From NCBI GenBank assembly GCA_016858145.1, contig JAEHOE010000029.1, forward strand, positions 964,665 through 1,028,664: a stretch of DNA of 64,000 nt. Direction: 5' to 3'. The notes beneath the pieces are model-generated. The model did not search any database, was not told the origin of the DNA, and was given only the letters and a program-made list of their open reading frames with translations. The stretch is from Edaphochlamys debaryana (taxonomy: Eukaryota > Chlorophyta > Chlorophyceae > Chlamydomonadales). Made by a program: the position numbers and the translations under genes. Shown here one piece after another: positions 7,665 through 26,100 of the stretch (positions are counted from its first letter, which is position 1; the number at the start of each line of letters is the position of its first letter).

Positions 7665-8659
7665 ATGGCCTCTTTTCATAAGGCACCAGTGCGCCCGCTC
7701 TGGGTCACGGAGGCCGTCGAACGCATGCGGGCAGCCGCGGGCGCCGGCGGTGGTTCCGCGCTGCTCCTGACCGGGCCGGGCCTCCGCATGCTGCTTCCCG
7801 TGGACACAGCCCTCGAGGCATGGCTCGCCCGCCTCAAGAAAACCGCATCGAAGGCACAGCCCTGCTGCCTGCACGGCGCCTACGCCCTGCCCGAGGCCAA
7901 CCTGCTGGTGCTGGACTGCAGCCGCAAGGGTGTAGACGCCGTGGCTGATGCGGCCCAAGCGATGGTGGCTGGGGGCGGGGACGGGGACGGCGACACGGGC
8001 GGCGCCGCGCCACCGCTGCTCAGTGCCGCGGCCACTAGCCTCTCAATGAAAGACGCGCTCACCTCGGTAAGCAAAGGGTTGCGGCTGGCAGAGATGCATG
8101 GCTGGAACGAGTTGTGGTTGCTGCGGGGCTGGCTGGGGCGGGGCTTGGCAGCGGTCCCACTTGCTTGGCACGCAGCGGGCAAGCTGCAGCGGTCCCCATG
8201 CTGCGTCTTTGCCTTAGCCATCATGCGCTGTTGGCTGCTGCTGTGGTGGCTGCGTCCGCCTCGACACGGCCCAGCAGTCCCGCACTGCGCATCTGCCCAA
8301 GCGCGGGCGTCACGTCACGTGTCAGCCCCGCGGCAGCAGGCCAAGGCCCGGTGTGTCTCGGTCCCGGGCTCTGCAAAGACTGACACGGCGGTCTTTGCCC
8401 CCTTGCTTTCCGCCCCGTGATTGTGCAGGTCATGCAGGAGCTGTGGGACGGCAAGTCGGGTCTACGCGTGGCGGCAGCGGCGGGTGGCGGGTCCGGTGGA
8501 CTCAGCGGAAGCTTGGGCGGCAGCGCTGGCGGCGAGGAGCCAACGGAGAGCGAGGCGGAGGGATCCGGGCAGGCGGGGCAGGGCGAGATGAGGCGACTGC
8601 GAGGGCTGCTGAGGCTGCTGGGGAATCTTGAGGGGCTGCCCGAGTGGATCCAGCTGTGA
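7665..8659 (+). CDS. Small protein with the LRR-family C-terminal module, 2 exons
   Basis: Exons 7665-8066 and 8429-8659 join in phase 0 and give about 210 aa from ATG 7665. SALLLTGPGLRMLL and ANLLVLDCSRKGVDAVADAA align with LLLTGSRLPELL and ALLLTCSSAAIAEDAA of the LRR protein on the opposite strand. The last exon starts VMQELWDGKSG, like VLQAMWHGDETGG there, and ends LLRLLGNLEGLPEWIQL. A Gly-Ser-rich low-complexity stretch sits between. No leucine-rich repeats remain, so this is either a truncated, inverted paralogue or the 3' part of a gene whose 5' exon is the coiled coil at 7038-7652. Function unknown. Confidence 0.6.
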
Positions 8660-9968
8660 CGGCCTGTGTGCATGGGAAGGGAGCCTTGGTGCCGCTACTA
8701 TGGCCCGCGGATGTGGATGGGCCGAGAGCTAGGAGCACGCTCGGCCACCCATCTTGGGCAGTAGCAGGAGGGGAGGCTACTTGCGCGCGGTTGATCGTAT
8801 TGCCACACTCCGACGGCCATGGCGCGCCCGACATTGAGCGTACCGTGGCAGCGGGTTAGACACAAATGCTGGAGGGCAAGGGTTGATCACGGTAGTTGGT
8901 CTCATGAGCAGAGTTTCGTGCATGCGGTCGGTCCGCGCGGTTGCGGATTGCGAGCAGATCTTAGGCAGATACGGGAAGTGCTTTCTGCGGTGTCGACAAG
9001 GCGTCCAGACCAGGGCACGGTAATGTACGAGCGCTGCTCGTGAGTATCACAGGGCTTGGTCCCTGCTTCCGGGGGTGCACGTGGGATGTGGGGGCGCGCA
9101 TGGCAGTGGTTTGAGCTCATGCCTTGGCGACAAGGTCTGGTTGGTGGACATGAGGTCCTGTTAGGACAATTTAGAGGGCATGGACGGGCGGATGCTGGAC
9201 GGTATGGCACTGGGTCTCGTGATGCACTAATTGGCGTGATTCAAGGCTCGTCTTCAATCCTCGCTCCGTACAGCAGATTCGAATCGCCATGCATGGCCTG
9301 TCCAGCTACCACCAGCTGATGCAGCTCCTAACCCTTGCAGACAGCGGAAGAGCGTGTCCTGTCCAGTAAGCGCATCACATCTGAGTCAAAGGTAACAGGT
9401 TTCCTCCACATCCGGGCCCGCTGCACATCCGTTTACCCCATTAGCAATCAAACGTGCTTCATTTGCTTTGCTTGCGTAAGTGCATATTCACGAGGCACAC
9501 GACATGTACGACTGGAATGAACTGAAGGCTGGCATGGTCACGGGCACCAGGCGGGAACCTGGCGGGAACTACTCAATTGGCCCTGCCCGTCTGGACCCCA
9601 GCACACCCCACCACGCACGGTACGGGGCGGTCTTATAAGTGCATCTCAATCACAGATAGATACTTGAGCCAATAAAGGCTAGTAACATATACTCTTGAAG
9701 ATCAATCTTCGTTGTGGATAGGTCAAAGTCTAAGGCGTGCGTGATGCTTGGTCATTGGCCATTCGTCCGCATCTGCATTCTCCCTACCTCCATCTGACTG
9801 GATTCCGTCGGTCCTGGGTTTGTTCTTCCCCGTCCATTCCCCTGGCGCCACAGTCTACCGTACTCGCCCCTGGCCGCCGGCAGGTGTCCACATGCATGAA
9901 TGGCCCAATACACGCCGACGGACCCCCTGTCATGGGCGTTTATGGTCGGGCCATCACGTGTTCTTCGA
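8660..9968. other. Intergenic spacer, lower GC
   Basis: Between the + gene ending at 8659 and the minus gene ending at 9969. Sequence near 9640-9720 is clearly less GC-rich than the surroundings. No ORF, RNA gene or TGTAA-type signal in the expected orientation is convincing. Confidence 0.45.
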
Positions 9969-12900
9969 TTAGGTCAGCGGCCAGCCCAGGCTCACAGGCC
10001 TGAGGGCGTCCCCCATCTCTCCGCCCCCGTCGCCCAGGTCCCTGGTGTGGCCCTGGCCTAGCTGGCCGAAGTCGTTGCGTCTGCGAGCGGGCACGTGTGC
10101 CGTACCAAGTACGACAGCACACGTGCGGCAAGAGGGGGTGGGGAGTGCGGCGTCAGGGGTCCGAGGGACTGACCTGCCTGTTTTGAGTGCAGGGCGGGGC
10201 GTGCACCACACAGCACAAGTGGGCCGTTACTTTAAATGCTTGGCGGACTCACCCCCAGCATTTGACGCCGTAGCTTGGATGTACGACAGCGCACGTGGCC
10301 GTCTCCCCCGTCACCACGTGCTGTGAGGGGGGCCACGGGAGGGGGACTGCCTGAGGTTATGCGACCTCCTGAAGAAGAGAAGTCAACCGCAGCATAAGCT
10401 ACGCTCGGGACCGGGCGGTCACTAGTACATGCCCTTACGCCATAGCCCAGCCGCCCTCGGGGCCCCCTCGCTCCCTGCAGCCGCATGCGCCCACCAGTGC
10501 CGTCCGGTTGGCTCCCAGCTGGACGGCCGGCAGGGGTGCGGGAACGGTGCCCGCGCTCGCACCAGTCTCCAGCGTGTGCCCCAACCCGAGCTGCCCGTGC
10601 TTGTTCAGCCTGTGGTCGAGACGAACGGGCGGCCATGCAACAGGCAGCAGTGTGAGGGCAGTGGGCAGATACCGATTGTGTCGGCACACCCGATCGAGAC
10701 ACATGCCACCCGCCCGCCCAGTCACAGCGGTACGGCTCGGCCCAGCCATGGACGCACCCCCAACATTTGAGGCTCCGCGAGGTGCCCTGCTTCAGAATGG
10801 CGCACGTGTGTTCGGACATGGGCCCACACGCCAGCGCCTGCGCAGGGCGGCGCGAGTCCCGACAGGGGTCGTGCAGGGTCGGCAGGAGAGGTGAAAGGGA
10901 GCGAGGGGAGGTGCGTAAAGGGCGGGGGCGATTGAGGGAGGCAAGGGGGAGCGAGAGCGAGGGGGCATAAGGCGGGAGGAAGAGGCTTGCTGCGTTTGCA
11001 TAATGAGCACCTCCCGCACCTGGACCTCCACTCCGGCGCCCACGTTGACAAAGCCCAGACTGTCGCCCATCTCGTCGGCGCTGTACCCACTGGCGGGGCA
11101 TGCGGGAGCGGGCGAGGGCGTGAGAGAGGGTGAGAGCTATCTAGATAGCGCGGCTGCAAGCAGCCTTAGCTGGGGAGGCCGAGCGACCGCCTGTGGCCCG
11201 TTACCGGAGCTAGCGACCCCTACAGCCGCGCCCCTTGGTTCCGTGCGAGCAACAGCTCCCTATGTTTGTACGGCGGATAGCACGGATAACACGAGCATGG
11301 TATCGCTGCGTCGGGACCTACATGTAGGCTCCCTTGACGCCCAGTCCCAGCTCCCCCGCTCCGTTTGACCTGCGCGGCGGAGGGGGGTGGGCGGCGGGGG
11401 GGTGGGGGGCAGGGCGCAGGGGGCATAAGCGGCATGGAGGCACCAAGAGCGCTCAAGACAGGACGGGGCAGATCAGAAGGAGCGGCATGAAAGGGGCCGT
11501 GCAGGGGGAGATCTGGTTACTAGCTGGGAGTGGCGGCGTGGCTGCCCCAGAATGAAGAAGCCCTCGCCCCCTTGCGACAGCCTTGCCGTACAGCGCCGTA
11601 CGCGTGACGTACCCCCAGCACTTGAGCCGTCCGCCGGGCTGCAGCACCGCGCACACGTGCGCCCTGCCCGCGCACATGGCCTGCGATCCAGTACGGCATC
11701 GTACGGCACGTGGTGGCCAAGCAGGCCAAGTCAGGTACGGTAACGCAAGGGCCCCCTGCCCCTTCCTATAACCCTTCTGTGCACCACCCTCCTGCCTTTG
11801 CTCAGCTAGCTAGCTCCCAGCACGCCCACTCGATACATCGCCGGCCCCTGCCACGAGCAATACCGTACCCCAGCGGACTTTCAGAAGTCGGAAAGAGATC
11901 TCTTACCGATGCCTGAACGTTGGGCCCCAGGTCCACGGGGGGCAGGTCTGCGCTGGGTACGAGCGGCGGCTGATCGGGGACGTCCACGTGGATGGCGGTA
12001 AACTCGGCCCACTGCTTCCTGCGGGCAACGAACACGCAGCAGCGAAAATAGGCCGGCGCTACTCGGCGCTTACTGCTGAAGCTGGCTCGAGGAAACGCGT
12101 GCCGCTCTGGAAGGAAGGATGCCGTCTGGCTGGGCACGCACGATCTGGTCTCGCAGCAGGACATTCATTCTGGCAGGTTGGTTGGTCTGTGTTTCGATGC
12201 TCACCCCCAGCACTTGACGATTCCTCCCGGTTGGATGAGGGCGCACGTGTGGAGGAAGCCAGCCGTAATGGCCTGGGGGCAGGGGAAAAAACGAGGGAGG
12301 CGGGTGGGGTGCGTGGCGACGAGGGCGGTGACGTGACACCGGCGCGTCACGCGGACGGACGTCAGGGCGGTCCTGATTACCCCGCAAACCAATGATGGCT
12401 ATGGGTTTAGGAGAGTCTCACCGTGACGTTGACGTTCGTTCCGAGCAGGATGGGTTGGAGGTTATTCCCCATGTGGGCGACCGCGTCCCCCCGGTTGGCC
12501 GCGTCACCGGGGCCCAGCTGATGGAACTCGTTGTACCTGCGAGATGCATGGAGGTTGGTCATCGCCGCAAGCCGTTGATCAGTCATCTGTGTGATGAGTC
12601 ATTCTGTGTGCTGAGTGCGGCAGGGCAGGGGGGCCACGAAGCCAGGGAGTTGCCCGGGCGTCGGCGTGTGCAGGGCTTGGAGGTGCCCGGAGCGCAAAAT
12701 TGCCGCGCCACCGCACGCACCCACTTACCCCCAGCACTTGACCAGAGTCGATCGTGCTGGCGGCAAGGTCTGGAGGAGTGCGCACGTGTGGTACACGCCC
12801 GCAGCCAACTGAGGGTACCGGTGGGAAGACAAGGAGTAGGCAGGAGGGATTGGAGGAAGAGGAGCGAGGCAGGGGCGAAGATCAAGTACCTCAACCGCCG

Positions 12901-13669
12901 CCCCCAGCAGTACAGATCGTCGCTCTTGCTCTGCACACGTGCCTGTGTCGCCTGAAGATCGGTGCCCAGGTTGACGGTTGGGATCTTGTCTGGTGCGGTT
13001 GAGGCCGTGTCCCCACGTGGCTGCGTGTCCCCCAGACCGAGCGAGCCGTACATGTTCGCCCTGCGAGCGAGGCGTGGGGACGCGAGGCGTGGGGACGCGG
13101 CAATCAAAACCTTCAGCTTGAGCTCCTGGCTGTAGCTCAACTCACCCAAAGCACTTGACTGCGCCTCCCGGCTGCAGTATGACACAGGTGTGGGAGTAGC
13201 CCGCAACCACGTCCTGTGGAGGGGGAGTGGCGGGGCGGGGCCGGGCGGGGCGGGATGGGCCGCAAGAAAGCAAGGCACGCACACCAAGCACGCATCCCGG
13301 CGCCGCGTGACGGTTAGCGCGATGAGGATTGTTCCCCTCACCGACACGTGCGTCCAGTTTGCGCCGAAGCTGACGGCTGGCAGCGAGGAGCCCAGCAGAA
13401 GGATCTCGTCGCCCTTGCCGTTGTACGACACGGCCGTGGCTAGGCCGCTGTACCTGCGAAAGGGACCAGACCCAAAGGTGTGGTGACTATCATCCGGACT
13501 AAGTAGTAGTAGGGCATGCATGCGCAAAGTGAAAACAGGGGCCGATGATGACCTGGGCACGCCATGGCAACAGCGGGCGAGACCGTCTGGCCCACGCAGG
13601 CTTACCCCCAGCACTTGACCCTGCCACTCCACAGCACGCACACATGGTAGCCGCCGATCGCCAGCTTGG
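9969..13669 (-). other. Seven-repeat RCC1/BLIP-II-type beta-propeller region
   Basis: Exons: 13606-13669, 13342-13453, 13146-13213, 12937-13060, 12729-12808, 12422-12536, 12205-12272, 11907-12018, 11613-11680, 11322-11369, 11020-11089, 10758-10837, 10495-10609, 10253-10320 and 9969-10080. Each repeat has a first-half exon ending (V/L)KCWG (once KCFG), preceded by a G-x-x-H-(T/V)-C motif, and a second-half exon with GQLGxG and LPxVxLG-like motifs. First halves end in phase 2 inside the WG codons (TGG GG|GT). Second halves end in phase 0. Repeat 5 has one extra intron. Seven repeats would close one propeller. RCC1-type propellers mediate protein binding. Confidence 0.9.
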
Positions 13670-16600
13670 CTGCGTGCGGCAGTATGGCAGTACGGCAGCG
13701 CGGCGGTTGAGGTACGGTTTGGGGTATGCATGGCCCCTAACTCGATATGAGCGCTTTGAAAGAGCATCAACCCCGAGCCCGAGATGCACGCAAGCATGCC
13801 CTTCCATAAGCCCCACGGACCCAGAGAGGGTTTCCTCTCCACCGGCCGTAACCCTGCCGTACTCACGTGGCTGCTTGACGTACAGGCACCACCCCGCAGC
13901 GGGTGCGCTGTTCGTGACGTTGGCCTTAGCCTGACCCGAGCCCAATGCTGCCGTGTTCCAATCGAATCCAAGGCAGTCGGTGCTTAGAGAGCAGGACCAC
14001 GCGAGGGCGGTTAGGTTCAATCCACCCATGCCAGCCAGATCGCTCCCCGGGCTGTTGCGATCCAGTACGGCAGGTTCGAATCCGTACAGATACGGGCACG
14101 AGGGTGGCGGGCGGGTTGGAGCGGGACGCTGCGGCGGCTTTGGCGGCGAGGGGGCCTTGGGTGGTCGGGGGGAGGGGGCGGGGCTGGGCGGACGGGGGGG
14201 ATTGGGCGGTCGGGGCGGCGGGGTGGGGCTCGGCGGAAGCGGCGGCTTTGGCGGCGCTGGGGACGGGGCAGGGCTGGGCGGCTTCCGGGGTGGCGGGGGC
14301 GGCTTGGGTACCGGCGGAGACGGAGAGGGCGGTGTGAGCTCTGCGAGTGGGTGGAAGGGAGAGGGAGAGGCAGGGGAGACTTGAGGCCACTGATGCACCG
14401 GGCACCGAGCACAAGGCATGCCGCTTTGTGAGCGCGCACTCACGCGAAAGCGGGGAAGGCGGCGGCGTTGGCGGCGACGGGTTCGGCGGGTTTGGAGCGG
14501 GAGCTGCGCGGATGGGTGGGAGGAGGGGTCTGAATGGACAGAGGGAGACAAGCTTCATGTGGGGTCCATGTCTCATATGGCAGGAGAGAGCCCTTGTCCC
14601 TAGCCCTTGTCCCTAGCTGTCACACCCACCCGAGTCCGCTCTCCACAAAGCTTGCCACCCGTCCCGACAGTCCACCCCCGTGTGAATCCGTCCCTCACTG
14701 TCTCTTCAAGCCGCGCCCCTGCACCAACCGACCCACTCACGCGTGGGGGGAAGGATGCGTGAGTAGAGGCAGCTCCCCAGCACGGCTTGCGTGGGGGACA
14801 CCGCAGCCTTCCAGTAGCCCACCTGCGGGGGAGGTCGGTGTCTCGGTGAGAGAGGGTGACATGATGCCAGCAGGTAGGCGGACTGGCCTGACTCGCCCAC
14901 GGCCCGCCCTGCAAGCCCAAGCAACCCCAGCTCAAGCCCAGGGGCGCCCCTTGACGTCCCGTACCCACGAATTCACAGCGCCGTAAGCCACCGTCAGTTG
15001 AGGCCGCCCTATGCCAGAAGGAGCGATGGCCCCATCCCGCCCACGGCCCAACCTGCAGCCCCGTGTGTCCCAACCTGCGGCCCCACTTCTTACTCAAGGA
15101 GTTGAATCACGAAAGCCCCGGCCAGCCCTAGCCCACGGACCCACCCACCCACCTGCAGCCCTGTGTCCCAGCTGAAGCCTTCGCCCCTCGACACACAGCC
15201 AATTCCCCAACACTTGCGGCATCATTCCTATACCCAACGAACCTGCAGCCCCAGTTCGCAAGGCTTTCAAACCTAGCCTGATGCCAACAGGAGAGATGCA
15301 TGGCCGCACCTGCAGCCCTGTGTCCCAGCTGAAGCCCGCGCAGCCGCGGGGCTCGTTGGCGCAGAAGGACGCCAGCGCGCCCAGGCTGAGGGACACGCCA
15401 AGGTGGTTGCCCGCGGAGGGCAGGGCGCTGTCCAGGTCCCGCCGCACGCTGTAGCCATCCACGATGGGGCATCTGGGGGGGCGGAAGGAGGGGGTCCAGC
15501 AGGCGGGGGGCCAAGGGACTCGTCAGCACGCAGCTCGGCGCGCGCCCGCCCCCAGCCCGCCCGCTTAGGTCGCCCCCCCACACCCACCGCCCCATATGCC
15601 CACATAGGCCCGCTGTGTTCGACCGTGCGTGTTGCGCGTTCTTCCGCGTTTCTCATACCGTACATGTGAATAGTGCTGGTCCCCAAAGGCTGACCCCGGA
15701 TGGCAGGAACAGGGGCGGCCTCACTTGGCCGGTGGTGACTTGGCTTCAGCCCGCACGTGGGACGGATTGCATGCCCGCCATCCCACCCCCGACTGCGCTC
15801 ACATGGTGGGGACGGGCGGCAGCGCGCACTCCAGGCTCGCGTTGTAGCGATAGCGGCAGACGTCCACCGCCATCCTCGTCCCGCCGTCGATCAGCTCTGG
15901 CGGGTTGAAACGAGGAAGCGGTAGGGCGTGAGCTATGGCCAACGCGACCTACGCATCCCTCTGCGTGAAGATGACCACTGGATCTGGATCTAGACCTGGA
16001 TCGGGGTCCCCGCCGCACTGCACGAGCGAATCTACCGTGCCGTACACCGCGGTGACTCACCTCGTGCTTGGACGAGCAGGCCGTACTCGGGCAGCTGCAG
16101 CTGCTGCCCAGCGTCTACCAGGGCGATCAAATTGAACCGCGGGTCGGCCTGGGGGCTGGGCGGCGCGTTGTCCACAGATCGCAGCGCCTCGTGTACGGAG
16201 ATCTTGTAGCCGTACTCCGCGTCAAGCTGGGCGTCCGGGCCGCCGCGCACGCGCAGGGAGAGGTACAGGTTCCTGTTCGTACAGGTACGAGGTCGTGCGA
16301 ATGGTTGGACACGCGGCGGCGGGCGGAAGGAGGGCGCAATCCAGACCAAAAGCACGCAGCACGCACGCACGCACGCGCTCGCGCACCTGATGTACGCCGC
16401 CCCGAGCCAGTCGGGCAGGATGCGGATCATGATGCCGTACGGTCCCAGGATCGTGGCATTGAGGGCCAGGCCGGCCCGTGTGGATGCCAGCGCCAGGCTG
16501 GACGCGTTGAGAGTTACGCCCGGCGCCGCCCAGCCCAGGCGCAGCAGCTCCGGGGCCGAGGGGCACGAGCGGTGGGCGGAGCCCATGACCTGGACAAAAA

Positions 16601-19600
16601 TGAAAGCAGCAGCAAGTCCTTAGGTGAGCTAAGTGAGAAGGGTAGAACAAAGGGTCGGAAAGGGTAGGAAAAGGGTAGAAGGAAGGGAAGAACATAGGGT
16701 AGAACAAAGGGTAGGAAAGGGCTCACGGTGGAAAAGTCCATGTACTCGGTGCCGTCGCGCCAGCCGTGGTGCATGCCAAAGTCTGGGGGTCGGGGGGTTT
16801 GAGGACGTGGGATGCACAGGGCTGGGGCTGGGAGATGGAGTTGCAAGCAGGCGCCAATGACAGAGGGCTCGACGAAGGCGGCCGGCTAGCGCCAGTATTG
16901 GGTTGGCTGCTCGCCTGCACCCCGACCACCGCCCCGCTCACTGTGCAGAAGCTCCTGCATCATGGTGCCGGGCTTGTAGACGCCCTGTGTTCGGAACAAC
17001 GCATAGCAGGGCAACGTCCATGCCTCGAGAGCCCCCAGTGCCTCCCGGGCAGTCCCTCTCGAGGCCCCGCACCCCCGCACCCCGAGCCCTCCCGGGCCCT
17101 GCAGGCACCCATGCCTGACCACCCCGGGCCCTCCCAAGACCCCGTCCTCCCGAGCCCCACTGACGCCCATGACAATTCCAGCCCCTTCAAACTGGTACGC
17201 CCCGCCCTCGCCGTCCCCTGCTCCATCCCCCGGCCCCCCCACCCTCCCACGCACCAGCTCGCGCGGCGCCAGCCACGACTCCCCCCCCGCCAGGCTGGCC
17301 AGCCCGGCCCAGCTGCACAGGGTGTCCTCGGGCATCACGTAAGCCACGTGCGAGAAGCGCCGCAGGCTAGGCAGTAGACCTGCTGGGGTTTGCACGCATG
17401 TGCGTGGTGTTGACACATGTGGATCACCATGGGTAACGTCCTGGCTCCAGTTGAACGTCAGTAGCTTTCAAGCACACGCACGCATGCCCACACAGAACCC
17501 CATCAGGACCGTCCGCCACGCACGGCCCCACCTTGCTGCGCACTCAGCGCGGCGTAGGCCTGCTTTGCCGCATTGGCGGTGGCCAGGGTGTTGCAGGCAA
17601 TGACGTCCAGGCTGCACGGCAGCGGCACGTGCACCACCTGTACGGCAGCCAGGGTTCCGGTACGGCAGGCAGCACGGTGCTCGGTGAGCGGGCCTCTGGG
17701 TCGGTCAGCTCGAGGGGCACGCATCTTGCGTCAAGTTTGGCCTGTGCTCCGGACTGCCCCAATGCATACGGACGTCCCGGGGTCATCCGACATCCGACAG
17801 CTAGGTAGCTAGCTAGCTAGCTCGCTGCGCCCGTCACTCGATGTGTGTCTCACCAGGGAGCTGTTGCGCAGCAGCCGGAACCGGCCGAAGCTGCACGCCG
17901 CCAGCTGCGCGGCCACCCCCTGCTCGGGATCCCACAGCACCCCCCCGACCCGAGCCGCGTCGGCCCCGCCCGCGCCCAGGCACTCGTCCGAGTCGCTGAG
18001 GCTCAGGATCATGACTAAGAGGGACACGCTGACGTTGGCCGCCAGGCTGGGCGGCCGGTTGGGCGAGAGCCTGCAGGCAAGCAAGCAAGCGAGGAAGTAC
18101 AGGGAGTAAGGGAGCGTGGTTGCGGATATGGCAAGCGGGTTTGTTAAGTGCGTCCGCGGTTTTGCCCGCCCATCGCGGCAGTACACTCTGTTGTTGACGG
18201 TGAGTGGCGAGGAACTCACATCAAGGACACGCCTGATACCACGCCACAACGGAAAGGGGCCGCCAGGGAACAGGTCTGCAGGGGGGGAAAGGGGCCGGGA
18301 CGCTTGCGCGGACGCGGGCGGGAGCAGCTTGCGGGAAGCGGGGAGCAGCCTGCTGAGGATATATGCTACGCGTGCTGGCTTGGCCAAGAGCTCAGCTTTC
18401 CACGCTCACGCCATACTCACACGCAGGCAAGACAAGGTACTTCCATCCAGGTACTCACCAGATTGACCAGGGCCCCGGCCGGCAGTGTGAGGTTAGTGGC
18501 TGCGGCCCGGGGCTGCCCGGGCAGTTGAAAGCTGGCCGAGTCGTTCAGGCGCTGAATGAACCACGTCATCTCGTCCGTTCTGTGCATTATGGACATTTCA
18601 AGCCGCCCCTGAGGTGGTCGTGGGGCAAAACGGCTCAGCACGGGGGACAGGACCGAGGCAAACCCGGTGGCGTGGCACAGTGTCAGCCGGCGCATTGCTG
18701 AAACGCCGTGAAACGGCTTCAACAGCAGCACAAGACACGGGCCGAGCAGCACTCACGGCGAGTGTGAAGGGCTTTGGCAGCGGAGGCGACGGGGGCCTTG
18801 GGGGCCGTGGGGGGCCTGGCAGCCTGAAGATACCGGGTGGGAGGCAGCAAGGGTGGACGGGACGGAGGGTTATGGAAATGCGACGCACTGGCGCTCGAAT
18901 GGCGCTTAACACAACGGCCAAGGCGTTTGATGCCTGTCCTCGGCATCGGTCCATGCATGGTGTCAAGCTGCCGTCCAGCCCTGCCGGAACGCTGACATAC
19001 AGGCGCACCTGGGGGGCGGGCGTGGATGTGGGGAGGGCGGCTTCGGCCTCGGAGGCGAGGGCGGCTTGGGAGGGCGCGGCGGAGGTAGAGGGGGCCGGGG
19101 CGGCGGGTTGGGCGGCTTGGGAGGGCGCGGCGGTGGGAGGGGCGGCCGGGGGTATGGAGAGGGCGGTTTGGGAGGTCGGGGCGGAGGTAAGGGCGGAGGG
19201 CGGGGCGGGGACGGCGGCTTGGGTTGGGGCGGAAGGGGCGGCTTCGGGCTGGGCGAAGGGGGCCCTGGTGGCTGAGGTGGAGGGCTGGGCGGCGGTAACC
19301 CTGCATGCAGGCACGGGCGCAGACAGGGCCCGTAAGACCTCCAGGTAAAAAATGCATATGGTGATCGGAGGCCTCCCTCGATACACGGTCACCAGCCCCT
19401 GCTCCCGTGTGCGTGGGTCCATACCCCCAGGCCCCCAAACCCCCAGGCCCCCAAGGGTGCGTGCCCCAACCGTCCCTGGGCACCTCAACCTCTCCCGGGC
19501 TGCCTCTACCCGCGCAGTCTGCGGTCAAAAGCTGCCGGCCCCGGATGCCGCTTCCAGCATGCAGCTCACCCCAGATCGTCAGGCTCCACGCGTACACAGC

Positions 19601-20596
19601 TCCCGTCGCATTGCTCCTGGGCCCATCGACCAGCTGCAGCCCCCACGCACTGCCCGCCATGGGGACGAAGGGGCTAGCGGCGGATGGCAGCAGGGTGCTG
19701 AGGTTCGTGTGTGGGCGGTAAGTCCCGGTTCGGAGCAATGTGGTGTTCGGAGCGGGTGCGATAGCTGCGATGGAGACGGCCGCTGTGTCGCTAACGCGAT
19801 AGGTGCCGTTGTAGCTGTTGCTTCCGCCGGCTCCGGAGCAGAGCGCCAGCCCGGATCCCGTTGCCGCTGTTGACAGCGGGCTCGGGGCGCGGAGGCGCAT
19901 GCTGACGTCAGCCGCATAAGGGTGCATGAGGGTTACGGATACGGAGATGTCGGTCAGGCGCCAGATGCCGCAGGCGTACGGCACCGTGAGGGTGAGGTTG
20001 AGGCCCTCCGGGGCGCCGTTGGGGAGGGATAGGCCGGCGGTTTGGGGCGCCCTCCAGAGGGCATCGCACCGCAGTGCAGCACCTGGGGGGGCGTCGGGGA
20101 GGGGGGGTGTTGGAAGGAGGAAAAGGTCGTGGGACGAAGGGACGAGAGCGCGCTAGGCGAGGGCAAGGCCAGGGGGCATGTCTTCGGCCCAGACGAGGCC
20201 CACCCCGGCGCTTCGCTTGCCCTGCGGGGGAGGACGAGCTGACTGCGCGCTTATCCATGCTGCATCTCCCTTGTCCTGCATGTATCCTCGTCTCCTGGAG
20301 CGCGCGAGTGTCGAGACAGAGAAGGATGGATGCTGAGAACCTCCCACTTCTGCGCGTTGCCGTTTCCCCTCATCTGTCGCTACTCTATGGTTCTATGTAG
20401 TACTCTCCTGTTACAAGAGTGCTTGGTATCGTCTGCGCTGCACAAAACGCAAAGTGCGTGAAAAGTACAGCCGACAGTCGGCGCCCAGACGCGTACCTGA
20501 CGCGCTAGAAGCAATCAGAACTACTGTTATAAGCGCAGTGCAGCTGATGCGCCAGCCCGCGCAGCCCTTTCGCGCGGGAGCAGCCAGCATGAGCAT
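9969..20596 (-). CDS. Secreted modular protein: P-domain, QExxH metalloprotease (M11/VMP-like), PAN-like domains, RCC1-type propeller
   Basis: The 33 exons total 4320 nt with every junction in phase, giving 1439 aa plus TAA. Order: signal peptide (1-34); P/Homo-B-type domain (about 45-204); Pro-rich linker (205-320); gametolysin-like prodomain and protease (about 325-715) with Q553-ELLHNFGMHH563 and a Met-turn VMG at 577-579; PAN-like Cys domain (about 740-827); second Pro-rich linker (828-929); second PAN-like domain (930-1005); seven RCC1/BLIP-II repeats (1006-1439). QExxHxxGxxH is known from Volvox VMP proteases, one of which (VMP3) prefers copper. Expected location is the extracellular matrix or cell wall. 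The protease family includes matrix- and wall-degrading enzymes; the substrate here is unknown. The P-domain and propeller are additions not in gametolysin itself. Exon coordinates are given in the four part entries. Confidence 0.92.
13867..15472 (-). other. PAN-like domains and second Pro-rich linker of the modular protein
   Basis: Exons: 15310-15472, 14741-14822, 14444-14503 and 13867-14340. First Cys domain: CPIVDGYSVRRDLDSALPSA, then ASFCANEPRGCAGFSW and GSCLYSR. Second: CPYLYGFEPAVLDRNSPGSD, then SCSLSTDCLGFDW and AGWCLYVKQ. Both have the volvocine PAN/Apple-like spacing in which a GY/GF-D-SPG-D start is followed by paired Cys and a GF motif. A long PPSP/PPKPP linker lies between them. 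Confidence 0.8.
15803..18275 (-). other. Protease core of the modular protein (M11/VMP-like)
   Basis: Exons: 18220-18275, 17854-18070, 17532-17637, 17255-17382, 16942-16984, 16727-16782, 16387-16589, 16061-16272 and 15803-15896. The metal site is split by an intron: exon 16942-16984 ends ...MMQELLH and the codon A|AC completes Asn before FGMHHGW in exon 16727-16782. The sequence before it (HVAYVMPEDTLCSWAGLASL) and after it (EYMDFSTVMG, APELLRLGW) follows the gametolysin pattern. The 56-nt exon 18220-18275 was placed because only it repairs the reading phase between its neighbours; the others fit without adjustment. Confidence 0.88.
16620..16726 (+). repeat. GGGTAGAACAAAGGGT intronic minisatellite
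   Basis: Irregular copies of GGGTAGAACAAAGGGTMGGAAA lie in the intron between exons 16727-16782 and 16387-16589 of the modular protease. It is not the (TTTTAGGG)n telomere unit of volvocine algae. Confidence 0.75.
18459..20596 (-). other. N-terminal part of the modular protease: signal peptide, P-domain, Pro-rich linker
   Basis: Exons: 20497-20596, 19570-20082, 19009-19300, 18757-18823 and 18459-18608. Exon 1 encodes the signal sequence CTALITVVLIASSASG and ends in phase 1 at a GTACGC donor. Exon 2 encodes the P-domain, recognisable from VPYACGIWRLTDISVSV, the HPYAADVSMRLRAP strand and the closing VYAWSLTIWG. Such domains normally follow subtilisin-like proteases; here it stands at the N-terminus of a metalloprotease. 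Exons 3 and 4 encode PPPSP/PPRPPKPP repeats typical of volvocine hydroxyproline-rich wall proteins. The start ATG is 20596, with another in-frame ATG at 20590. Confidence 0.88.
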
Positions 20597-22925
20597 CAAT
20601 GCGCTGCTGGTCGCTTTGGTTTAAGGCTGAATAGACTTCTGGTATCTCATATGTTTAGTGTTTGTAAGTCATGATGGTCGACAGACAGTGTTGTCTGGGC
20701 CGCCTGGGGCACTGTACGTTGCTGGGGCGTTGAGCGGTCTCAGAGGGCGGTCATAGCAGAATACTGTTTGTGCGGCTACTGGGTGATTCAGCCCATGGTG
20801 AGAGCGGGGATGTACGAGAGACATCATAACCGTCTGCATGAGCTGTGTGTGGGCCCGAGGGCACCGGAGCCAGACCCTCCTCCTCGACCTTCGCAACACG
20901 CCCCCACCGTCCCATCGACACCGCGTACCGATCTATCCGTTCTGCCTTCCGTGTGGCGCTAGATAGCCTTGTCGCTCGTGTGCCGCAATGGAAGCTATAC
21001 CCTCTGACGGCTCCAAGCTCTGGGCTTTGCCACCACCATCCCGCCCACTCCAGGCTCCGCCACCACTGACCGTCCCTGCCGCCCACGGCCGGCAGCACGC
21101 TCCCAAGCGTCCCGCTCGCAAGGAAGCTTCGCCCTAGGGCATACCTCCGGTACGTACACCCCCACCGCCCCGCCCACGGCTTCGTTATCTCAAGCGTTGG
21201 AGTGCCAGTAAAAGCGGCATGGATGGTTTCACATCGGGCGCACGGGCACCTGCCACGCGGTGGTGTTACATATGGAGCACAGGCCATGCAACGTCCTTCC
21301 GCCAAGAAGTTAAGGTGTTCGGAGGCCGGAAGAGGGACTAAACAATACTTGCGCAATCACGAACGTTCGCCGCTAGCTACCCTAGAACCCGCGGACAGAC
21401 CGCTTTCCCTTTCTCCCTTGCATCACACGCTTCGTCAATATTGATGCTCGCTTAAACCGTCCAGCTTTCCATTTGCGGCCGCACACGCGCGCCATGCCTT
21501 GGTCCCCCTCCACATACAGTCAGCTGCGATCAGAAACACGCCACCCCGCCATCACGCCATCATCTGGCATCGCCAGAGGCCACACCAGTACCGGGCTCCC
21601 ACAGCCGGCCATGAAACGATTGGTCCCGAGCCAGAATAAGTTGGGGATCTCGAGCACAAACACCGGACGCAGCGACAAACGACAAAAGTATGCATTCCCT
21701 TGGGTTCAGAAACCTCAGCGCCCGGAGTGCAGACTGGAACGCCCTACGACGAACACAGTACACGCACCGTTCAGGGCCAACCCGCATCCCCGCCTGCTTG
21801 CAGCTCAAGACATCAGCACAAAGAGGATGCTATGAATGCAGAGCTACATCCCGTTCCCCCTTTTCCCGAGTCCGAAGCTCAGAACCCATACCTCCCCAGC
21901 ACACAGCACCCGCAAATTCTAAGCCGTGGCCGCCTTCATCGCAGAAGGCCGACCCCCATACCACACACGCCCCCATGCACCGGTCAAAGACAACGGTCGA
22001 AGACTGCACCCGCTCACGAGATCTGTCCAGCGTCCAGCGCAACGCCTTCCCCGTTTCTGCTTAGAGCGACCCTAGTTGCGTGCAAGTATTTCCCGTACAC
22101 CAGTACCGTACTTTCATCCTCGCCCGCACGCACAGCAGCACAGCTTGGAGCCGAGCGTGCCGGCTTTGTGTCCCGGGCCCACACGCCTGCACCCGCTACC
22201 CGGTCCTCGTCCCTTCCAAGATTCCCCCTTGTCAAGCGTGCAACCCCCACCCCCTCCGCCCACACAGCCCCGCCCCACGCTCGGGCAGCGACAAAACACG
22301 ACCCCGGTCAGACCATGCCTGGACCGTCCGTGCCTCGCCCCCCAGCCTCGCCCCCCAGCTGTCCACAGTCCCAGGGTTCGAAGTGCCGTACCGTACGGCA
22401 CATGACCCAAGATGCGCACTCCTCAGTTCCTTAGCACCCCCCCAGTCCACAGCCCACAGCCCGCACTGCCGCTGCCTCGTATCGTTCCGCACTGGTGTCG
22501 CTCCAGCTCCGAATCCCACCACCCGCTCGCTTGACTCCCCCGGGCCCCAGTACCTCCTCCCGGTTCCGTCATGATAATAACGGGGCCCACTCGCTCGCGC
22601 CCTCGCACGCCCCCGGCGCGGCCCACAGTCTGGGCCGTTTCGCCTGCTCCCCTCGAGACGGCCGCGTCCTCGTCCGCTGATGCCAGTGCCGTAGCCGCCT
22701 GCCGTACTGCCGTACGGCAGGCCACAGTGAAGGCCATCTCCGCACCCTCGACGGAGTGTGGTCAGTCCGCTGGCAGCAGTTCCCTGGGGCCTCGTCGGGG
22801 CCAATGGGGCCCCTGTACGTCCCCACCTCGGACCCCCGCCGTGCTGCAAGCCTCTGGCCGCAGCGCCACGGGGCCGCCTGCACCCCAACTCCCGCTCCCG
22901 CCCCTCCTTCCAAGCCCTGCGGCAG
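20597..22925. other. Stretch without a convincing gene
   Basis: This holds the upstream region of the modular protease (minus strand) and the distal 3' flank of the receptor kinase. Open frames on both strands (for example 21700-22434 on +) are Pro/Ser/Arg-rich, lack family similarity and no set of spliced exons could be phased. The sequence is strongly C-rich on + from about 21.8 kb. A TGTAA lies on + near 20663, with no + gene to match. Confidence 0.5.
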
Positions 22926-23110: not shown

Positions 23111-26100
23111 CCTGCACAAGCTCGTGTCTGTGAGCAGTGCCATGAGGCTGTTGTGCCCCAGTGCCTGCCGACTGATGCCGCTGGGGACCACCGCCATCAT
23201 GGGCTCCGTGCTGCTGCGCCCGTCCACGGTGCTGCCGCCGGCGTCGTCCGAGGTAGGGCCCGCCCCCACGCTGCCCACCACGTACGGCAGCGGACCGCCC
23301 GCCCCCGGCGTGCCCAGGCCGCCGTACACGGAGGCGGGCTGCAGGGTTGCGTCGCTGTTGCAGAGGGACCGGTCGGCGGTGACGTCCAGCTGGGGTCGGG
23401 GGAGGGGAGGGGAGGAGAGGAGGGGGATGAGGAGGGGGCGAGAGGAGGAGTTAGGGCCATAATCAAAGCTGCTATCGCGCCAGAGCTAATGGCGAGCTCG
23501 TCACGGCAGCAGCGCGCAGCCAGCCGATCCGGCTCGAGGCACGCGACCCCGACCCCACATTCCCCGGTCGAGCCTCCACCCAGCACCCAACCCAGGCCCC
23601 CAGAACCCCCCCGCTCCACGGCCCCACCTGCACGTGCGGCTGCACCCCCAGGAGCCCCCAGCCGGTGCCCTCGACACGTCGGCAAAACACACACGATTCC
23701 CCCCCCCGCCCCGCCCCACACGCCCCCTCCCCCCCTTTCCCACCTGCACGTGCGGCTGCACCCCCGGCAGCCCCCAGCCGGTGCCGGGCGCCTGAGCCGC
23801 GCCCGTGCCCGTGGCCCGGCGCCCCGCCGCCACCGCCGCCAGGGAGCCCGCGCCCGCGGCCTGCGGGAAGGCGGGGGTGCCCACGCGCTGGCGCATGCGG
23901 GACAGCTCCTCGAGGATGAAGGCGAACGTGGGCCTGCGGGTGTGGGGGAAAGGAGTGGAAGGGTGGTTAGGAGCGTGCGGGCGACGTTTGAAGGCAAAGG
24001 ATTGAGAGTGCAGATCCTCGAGGGATGGAGGCGAACGTGGGCCTGCGGGGAAAGAGATTCAGGCAGGGGTGGAAGAGAGGCAAGAAGGGTTAGGTGAAGG
24101 GATGCGCCCAACAAAGACGAGTGGGGTATTGACCGTGCTTATTGCAGCCCCGCACAAGGTCACAGCGGCGCACGGAGCATGCCCCCCCTGCAGTATGCAT
24201 GGCCCCTGCCCCTTTCCCCAGGCCGCACCTGTGCTCCGGGTTGCTCTCCCAGCAGCGGCAGGCCAGCAGCTGGTACTCGAAGGGGGCCGCCAGGTCGGGC
24301 GGGAAGGTGGGACGCAGATTCTCCTTGGCCACCGAGTGAGCCAGGAAGGCCTGCGGACGGCGATGTGAAGATGTTGTCAGCGAGAGACCAGTTTTGATGT
24401 GGGGGTGGCTGGTTGGTGATTGTCGATCGCTACCCAGTACAAATACCTTCCTTACAGCCGCCCCCCGAGCCCTGGCACCCTTCCCTCGCACCTTGTTCAC
24501 GTCCCGCATGGCGGTCTCCCCCGTGAACAGCTCGTACAGCATGATGCCGAACGAGTACACGTCGCTGGCCGGGCTGACGTGGCCGTTGACAAGCGTCTCC
24601 GGCGCCATATATGCAAGAGTCTGCGGGGCACGGTGGCAAAAGAACCAACGAGGACAGGGTTAGGGCCTGGAATGGAGACAGAACGGAGAAGGCAAGGCCT
24701 GCGGCATGCGGCATGGGCGTGGCTGGCTCTGGCTGGTTCCATCAGGCGCTCTGGGGCTCTGGTTGGTTGCTTGAATGCGGAGGCCAACAAGCGCCGACAA
24801 AGGGGTACCACTGAAGCATGAACCCCCCTGCCCAGCTCACCCCGTGGTAGGCATTGCTAATGTGCGTCTCCTCCGCGCTTAGCCGGAGGCTGAGCCCGAA
24901 ATCCGCGACCTGTGGGTGGCAGGCGGGGGACCCCGAACAGAACACAACAGGTTGGAAAACATGCTCCATGCAGAGGCCCAGCGACCAGGGCTCCCTGCAC
25001 TCCCACCCGTGCCCCTCTGTGGCAGGCCCCCAGGGGCAAACAGCCTCGCCCCCGCCTCGCCTTGGCAACGAAGCCCCTGGGGTCGGTGGTCGAGCCCTTG
25101 AGTAGCACGTTGCGCGGCTTGAGGTCCGCGTGCACGATGCCCTCCCGGTGCAGGTGCACTGGGCGCGCACGAGGGTGGGGGGGGGGGGCGAAAGGAAAAG
25201 GGCGTGAGGGGCGCAGTGCTGGGTCCCCAACAGATCCCCAACAGATCCGAATACCCCCGAGACCCCGAAAATACCCCCTCATTCCGGTACCGTTACGACC
25301 CTGTGCGGCAACACACCCCTCACCCCTAACCCCACAAAGTCTGTGCTCACCCATGGCGCGCGCAATGTCGATGGCGGTGTCGAGCACGTTGCTAAGATCC
25401 ACGAGCAAGGGCTCGTCGCCGCCGCTCACTACCGACCGGATGCGCGAACCCGGGGTGCCCGCTACTACTGGCGCCTTTGTGGCACCACCGCCCCGCTCCG
25501 CCGACACGCCGGCGCTGTCGGGGCCCGCGGCCGTGTCAGCGCTTCTGCGCGGGTCCACAGCTGCTGCTGCCGCGGTTTGCGCGTGCGACGTGGACCCCGG
25601 TCGCGACTGGAGCACCGCGTTCGCGCCGACGACGCTCGCGGGCTTGAAGAAGACGCGCGTGTCGAGCTTGTCGCGGAGTGACCCGAGGTCGCAGAATTCC
25701 TGCACAAGCTTGATCTCGTAGCCGAGCACGTCATCGATGTTGGACGTGACGTTGCTGCCCGGGATGCCCGAGGTCGCGGTCGTCACTCCACCGCCGTTGC
25801 CATTGCCGACGCCGTTGAGCGCGACGCAGTGGTCGGTGGAGGCGCAGGGCAGGCTGTCACCCCCGCTCCTGTGGACAGACAGACACAGGACGGACACGGA
25901 AGGGTGGGTGCTGTCGGCAGGCAACAGCAGATGGAGTAATGCCTGGTCGACACCCCGCCCCACGCTGGCCTGCTTGCCTGGGCCCAGCACACACGGAGGA
26001 GCGCACAGCCAGTCGAGCCATCCCTATTCAGGACTAGCCACAAGCCCCGCTCACTCCTGGAGGCTGGCGAGCTGGTTGGCCTTCCGCGCCTTGGCCCCCT

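Follow-up and report, generated by a model that had tools for sequence, protein, structure and literature searches.

We analysed a stretch of 64,000 nucleotides from the soil alga Edaphochlamys debaryana (the window) and found on its minus strand, at 20596..9969, a gene encoding an M11 (gametolysin-type) metalloprotease followed by a propeller of RCC1-type repeats. The original prediction for this locus had placed both parts in one gene, and this observation was confirmed at the level of the sequence. A script joined the 33 exons in phase into 4317 coding bases with no internal stop, from the ATG at 20596 to the TAA ending at 9969; the spliced product has 1438 amino acids plus the stop codon, which is counted in the 1439 amino acids first predicted. 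The splice sites are canonical throughout (GT at 32 of 32 donors and AG at 32 of 32 acceptors), and the GC content is 0.82 at third codon positions vs 0.64 in the introns. The exon model had been rebuilt by hand from the sequence with the earlier end points known, i.e., not blind, before it was joined. The product reads, in order, as a signal-like start, a P-domain-like module, a Pro-rich linker, the M11 protease, a Cys-rich module, a second Pro-rich linker, a second Cys-rich module and seven RCC1-type repeats (Table 1); the Pro-rich linkers expected from the original prediction are both present.

Pfam searches of the spliced product gave Peptidase_M11 (PF05548) at residues 433–697 with an E-value of 1.3e-51 and 175.8 bits against a cut-off of 21. 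M11 proteases are recognised by the motif H/QExxHxxGxxH, which includes the third histidine, and by a later Met-turn, as in metzincins. The window protein reads QELLHNFGMHH, which keeps the glutamate and the later histidines, with VMG downstream; the family match and this motif agree with the QExxH metalloprotease of the original prediction. Counterparts of exons 5–14 were found on three other contigs of the same genome (C434, C30, and C37), that of exon 6 being weak in C30. No match of the M11 part to PDB sequences was obtained at E ≤ 1, and an NCBIfam scan of five proteins gave nothing useful. The catalytic domain, the QExxHxxGxxH motif, the Pro-rich linkers and a presumed secretion are shared with gametolysin and the Volvox VMP proteins (PF05548), whereas the propeller and the N-terminal P-like domain belong to the window protein.

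The zinc site reads QE in 17 of the 18 M11 rows that cover it, four Volvox africanus proteins among them; counted by protein the figure is 15 of 16, because three of the 19 aligned rows repeat loci. The exceptions among the 19 were C37, which reads HE (HELLH), and the C16 row, which has no residues at this place. Volvox VMP1 also has QExxH. QExxH is therefore the norm in this family and by itself marks neither novelty nor inactivity. These counts bear on the alternative that the product is a pseudo-protease, a structural wall protein in which QExxH would be a poor zinc holder, the M11 domain a scaffold and the propeller the working part. The glutamine in place of the first histidine of HExxH and the HELLH of the C37 paralog speak for such a reading. 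Against it, the site retains its glutamate and two further histidines, VMG is also present, and the rows counted above are almost uniform in reading QE; we consider the pseudo-protease unlikely.

Table 1. Features of the minus-strand protease-propeller gene in the window.
Feature	Position	Strand	Evidence
Exon 1: ATG and signal-peptide-like N-terminus (MLMLAAPARKGCAGWRISCTALITVVLIASSAS)	20497..20596	-	Spliced model; signal judged by eye
Exon 2: P-domain-like module, residues 34–204	19570..20082	-	PF01483 score, 9-sequence family alignment
Exons 3–4: Pro-rich linker 1, residues 205–324, 63% Pro	18757..19300	-	Spliced model, composition
Exons 5–14: pro-region and M11 (gametolysin-type) protease, residues 325–744	15803..18608	-	PF05548; paralog counterparts
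Exons 10–11: zinc-binding motif QELLHNFGMHH	16727..16984	-	Spliced model; 19-row comparison
Exon 12: VMG (Met-turn-like) and SCPSAPELLRLGW motif	16387..16589	-	Spliced model, M11 alignment
Exons 15–16: Cys-rich module 1, residues 745–826	14741..15472	-	Counterparts in C434, C30, C37, C104, partly C85
Exon 17 and 5' part of exon 18: Pro-rich linker 2, 57% Pro	14102..14503	-	Spliced model, composition
3' part of exon 18: Cys-rich module 2, residues 928–1004	13868..14101	-	Own-genome matches
Exons 19–33: seven paired-Cys RCC1-type repeats, CRINKLY4-like propeller, residues 1005–1438, through the stop	9969..13669	-	Pfam, Cys pairs, intron phases, PDB matches

In the C-terminal third of the whole protein, Pfam gave RCC1_2 (1.2e-22) and RCC1 (5.9e-14), both above the cut-off, and WD40_RLD (9.3e-40) at 137.5 bits, below its cut-off of 150. 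When the propeller part alone was searched, RCC1_2 scored 96.2 bits vs 22 (6.4e-28), RCC1 scored 62.9 vs 21.7, and WD40_RLD rose above its cut-off (153.6 bits vs 150; 1.1e-44). Each of the seven repeats holds one Cys pair of the form C(X8-15)C[WF]G. The spacing is exactly 10 in four repeats, one of which reads CFG, and 8, 12, and 15 in the others. An intron of phase 2 lies directly after CWG or CFG and one of phase 0 lies between units, and the propeller exons follow a regular two-exons-per-blade pattern with one extra intron (28/29). Such Cys pairs were also found in two deposited relatives described below, seven pairs in P0002 (one without WG or FG) and six in P0003.

Among PDB sequences the propeller matched UVR8, HERC1, RPGR, RCC1, SRM1, and RCC2, and weakly ACR4 (7a0j, 5.8e-4). 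Solved BLIP-II, named alongside RCC1 in the original prediction, was absent from the 20 distinct PDB sequences that matched at E ≤ 0.001; this comparison was of sequences, and a likeness in fold may exist. The UVR8, RCC1 and HERC1 propellers are of the same repeat family by sequence; these proteins are intracellular, and paired cysteines are not their hallmark. In CRINKLY4 the repeats follow C(X10)CWG and form an extracellular propeller in which disulphides are likely (PMC4617170). Because of the paired cysteines and the PDB matches without BLIP-II, the sequence of the propeller was classed as resembling that of CRINKLY4 more than that of BLIP-II. Thus, the seven-repeat RCC1 propeller of the original prediction stands, with seven Cys-paired units and Pfam matches, but its likeness to BLIP-II in sequence does not. 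CRINKLY4 (ACR4) shares with the window protein seven RCC1-type repeats, the paired cysteines and an extracellular propeller, the last being presumed here; in CRINKLY4 these are accompanied by TNFR repeats, a membrane-spanning segment and a kinase domain. Since neither TNFR nor kinase families were found by Pfam in the whole product, the protein is not a CR4 receptor.

The P-domain-like module matched P_proprotein (PF01483) with 21.4 bits against a cut-off of 21 when exon 2 was searched alone and with 20.5 bits when exon 1 was included, and the alignment spans only positions 2–26 of 86. An alignment of nine sequences of the P-like family, for which 8 of the 12 stretches read were used (the other four were partial or held stops), has 17 invariant columns; seven of the nine members match PF01483 at E ≤ 0.01, the best at 5.8e-7. 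The three places in the genome found with PF01483 itself (C53, C156, and C66) were also found weakly with the window module (E 0.001–0.05). The P-domain label gains support because the family of the module in this genome matches PF01483. No NCBIfam match to the module was obtained. The likeness to the P-domain of proprotein convertases is a marginal profile match; the subtilisin-type catalytic domain of those enzymes was not found in the product by Pfam, and the P-like module precedes a metalloprotease instead. At another locus (C27:1004158-1010930; L020), a pair of P-like domains precedes RCC1 repeats on the same strand, and M11 gave no match.

We scanned the genome of the alga itself (141.9 Mb, 502 contigs) with the M11 family, the P-like domain and the propeller, and linked the matches by contig by eye. 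M11 and RCC1 matches lie on one strand within approximately 10 kb of each other on six other contigs, C30, C37, C85, C104, C139, and C434. At five of these (C434, C30, C37, C85, and C104), exon-level tblastn found pieces of M11, Cys module and RCC1 arranged as in the window. The locus on C139 (39565-46346; L019) holds two adjacent units of Cys module 2 and RCC1 repeats with weak evidence of M11; judged from its sequence, the propeller part also exists as a cassette of its own. Cys module 2 gave 18 matches in the genome, including itself, at E ≤ 0.01. On C196, a P-like domain is followed by a partial match to M11, and the 18 kb examined gave no match to RCC1. C159, C17, C122, and C68 have M11 and Cys module 1 with no RCC1 match. 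Comparison of these four with the propeller loci indicates that one catalytic core is shared by loci that have a propeller and loci that lack it. A P-like domain downstream of M11 and Cys modules was observed at C16:586897-589767 (L022), which indicates that the order of modules has been shuffled in this genome.

Two of the propeller loci are represented by deposited hypothetical proteins of E. debaryana, both of them fused. P0002 (HYH03_019183, partial; C434) comprises the end of a P-like domain, a linker, M11, Cys modules and seven repeats; it is 61% identical to the window protein over residues 325–825 and has the same seven paired-Cys RCC1-type repeats. It differs in having three Cys modules vs two in the window protein, and it is incomplete at the contig end. 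P0003 (HYH03_007354; C30) comprises M11, Cys modules and RCC1 repeats. The five additional loci and the two deposited models rule out that the architecture is unique to the window. The original prediction knew of no described member with this architecture; this holds for the literature found and not for the databases, in which HYH03_019183 shows this arrangement, with the last part of a P-like domain at its start. A published protein of the same architecture had been named as what would overturn that prediction, and it was found as this database record and in no paper. The combination is thus known from database records as hypothetical proteins, and no paper on it was found: the titles and abstracts listed from the openly licensed literature gave no description of an M11 protease with RCC1 repeats, the word "RCC1" was absent from the available text of the gametolysin and VMP papers checked, including PMC8643629, and "propeller" was absent from that of PMC8643629.

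Other C-terminal modules were found on M11 proteins, namely SRCR and PAN in P0004 (HYH03_013547), F5/8 type C in P0005 (HYH03_004960) and a sub-threshold laminin-G-like match after M11 in P0007 of Volvox africanus. Within this genome, M11 proteases differ in the module at their C-terminus (propeller, SRCR or discoidin-like), as though parts for targeting had been swapped on a common catalytic core. A further predicted Volvox africanus protein, P0001 (VaNZ11_016311), has three M11 domains in a row, seen as three matched stretches. The protein searches, which were insensitive, gave 7, 3671 (best 120 considered) and 3 matches. Because no Chlamydomonas gametolysin was among the matches listed, the absence of M11 with RCC1 from other species means little.

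We examined the conservation of splice sites at exons 5–33 in the five paralogous loci, counting the places where a paralog match (E ≤ 0.01) reached the exon end, with positions displaced from these by 3, 6, and 9 bases in both directions as the control. AG was present at 60 of 81 and GT at 58 of 84 homologous exon ends, vs 12 of 486 and 54 of 504 in the shifted control. The values for AG and GT were better for C434 (16/18 and 12/19), C30 (15/19 and 14/18), and C37 (16/19 and 17/22) and poorer for C85 (6/12 and 6/11) and C104 (7/13 and 9/14). At the exon 18–19 junction, which links protease and propeller, the donor is kept in C434 and the acceptor in C434 and C30. The exon 22 end is the least certain border of the gene model, because its weak donor, GTGCAG, was matched in none of three paralogs. 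Intron 11 (16590-16726) has no counterpart at the same place among five donors and three acceptors of the paralogs. Because no paralog matches its donor or acceptor, intron 11 is probably young in the window's copy and possibly represents a recent intron gain. The intron is composed of near-repeats of GGGTAGAA-like units (plus strand). Identities by codon position among the paralogs favour coding constraint; they were given little weight because the aligned pieces had been picked by amino-acid similarity. The P-domain "hits" in C37 (29% identity) and C104 (27%) in that comparison look like chance.

These data also bear on whether the locus holds two neighbouring genes, an M11 protease and a separate secreted propeller with its own mRNA, that were joined on paper only. 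The two units on C139, which have no convincing protease, show that the propeller part can stand apart, and the exon model of the window gene is drawn from genomic DNA. Against two genes, the intron between exons 18 and 19 (Cys module 2 and propeller) is in phase, has GT and AG ends and measures 197 bases, which is ordinary for a gene with introns of 85–487 bases (median 178) and leaves little room for the 3' end of one gene and the promoter and signal exon of another. The order of parts is kept at six loci including the window, and both deposited models are fused. TGTAA, the poly(A) signal, occurs once on the minus strand in 8501-20800, within intron 1; none lies between the protease and propeller parts, though none follows the stop either. 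Two separate genes are therefore very improbable.

A decaying or unexpressed duplicate was also considered. No deposited protein matching the locus appeared in the protein searches (size range, 791–2516 amino acids), and TGTAA is absent from the 1.47 kb scanned 3' of the stop. Such decay is hardly what 33 open exons with canonical splice sites and the high third-position GC content would suggest, and we regard it as improbable. Because an identical deposited protein would be expected near the top rank and did not appear, the gene may have been divided, truncated or missed in the public annotation. The E. debaryana annotation was built with stranded RNA-seq and BRAKER, according to PMC8226300, which also names BioProject PRJNA633871 for the public RNA-seq of the alga. 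P0003 lacks a stretch after QELLH that the C30 DNA encodes, which indicates that deposited models are error-prone. Upstream of the protease gene by 3.5–5.4 kb, pieces of a protein kinase gene lie on the minus strand at 24093-26023 with no visible join to it; PK_Tyr_Ser-Thr matched at 24093-24659 (1e-10) and Pkinase, below cut-off, at 24860-26023 (8.4e-5).

Taken together, the sequences make it reasonably probable that the protein is secreted and is a modular metalloprotease (M11) of the gametolysin/VMP kind, with a seven-bladed CRINKLY4-type propeller and an N-terminal P-like module. Several results weigh against this reading, besides the missing deposited protein, the missing poly(A) signal and the gap in P0003. 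The P_proprotein score behind the N-terminal P-domain first predicted is marginal (E 0.058 in the whole protein), and the nine-sequence P-like profile had no match among PDB sequences at E ≤ 0.01. Among the five paralogous loci, the P-like domain was found only at C434, as its last 73 residues, where the contig end cuts off the rest. Approximately a quarter of the AG sites and a third of the GT sites are unmatched in the paralogs. The PAN-like label of the original prediction was not upheld by Pfam: neither Cys module of this protein had a PAN family match in Pfam (limit E = 10; filters drop most matches above 0.1), and PAN_4 appeared, below cut-off, only in the C434 counterpart of module 2 (0.0023). 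AlphaFold models of P0002 (7 alignment rows; pLDDT 29.9) and of exon 2 alone (31.3) were unusable. An M11 tree (FastTree and IQ-TREE; query-anchored alignment) did not group the RCC1-bearing proteases, whose six rows were scattered with weak support. It contained 16 of the 19 rows built, P0002, P0003, and P0005 being left out as duplicates of the loci C434, C30, and C16, and the rows of C85, C104, C159a, and C16 were incomplete (coverage 0.69–0.75). The tree would thus neither support nor reject a single origin of the protease-propeller join. Finally, the data are of sequence: binding and proteolysis are predicted from it, and the gene model comes from genomic DNA.

A possible course of action of the secreted M11 protease can be outlined from known gametolysins. 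Gametolysin digests the alga's own walls for mating (available part of PMC8643629), and it is held as an inactive periplasmic proenzyme that is activated by a serine protease (available part of PMC6313938). The window protein would be secreted and made as a proenzyme. The P-like domain, because it precedes the protease, would be part of the pro-region or lie ahead of it; it may be removed, or have a part in activation. The Pro-rich linkers may be hydroxyproline-glycosylated and would anchor the enzyme in the wall or span it, and the protease would cut hydroxyproline-rich glycoproteins of the wall, as gametolysin does. The propeller may serve as an exosite, binding the enzyme to a particular partner in the wall or on a surface. 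The other non-catalytic C-terminal modules of M11 relatives support such an address role indirectly. According to the original prediction, the target may be a wall glycoprotein or a partner cell. A colonial matrix is not implied, because E. debaryana is a unicellular alga (available part of PMC8226300).

The propeller might instead read foreign surfaces, such as those of bacteria or competitors, and the protein would then be an enzyme of defence or scavenging and not of wall remodelling. The same alga has the SRCR-bearing M11 relative P0004, the title of one paper presents an animal SRCR protein as a pattern recognition receptor, and many of the named RCC1 relatives of the propeller are bacterial (most of the named matches among the best 120 of 3671). 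Likeness to bacterial RCC1 proteins says nothing on the ligand, and the walls digested by the gametolysin of PMC8643629 are those of the alga itself; we consider a defence role unlikely, and we prefer an enzyme that acts on the alga's own wall.

In land plants the CRINKLY4-type propeller is known from receptor kinases, and crinkly-repeat proteins have been noted in single-celled algae (both in the available part of PMC4617170). Here, an extracellular propeller of this type appears to be placed on a probably secreted enzyme of a unicellular alga. Gametolysin families are large in green algae; Chlamydomonas has 45 gametolysin genes, and the reason for so many is unsettled (available part of PMC8643629). 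An M11 subfamily with a propeller of the binding type makes a question testable, namely whether the tail sets the target. It is conceivable, though doubtful at present, that E. debaryana has at least six "read-and-cut" wall proteases in which the propeller is an exchangeable address label of the plant receptor-ectodomain kind. If so, digestion by each enzyme would be confined to one target, be it a certain stage of the wall, a mating partner or a strain.

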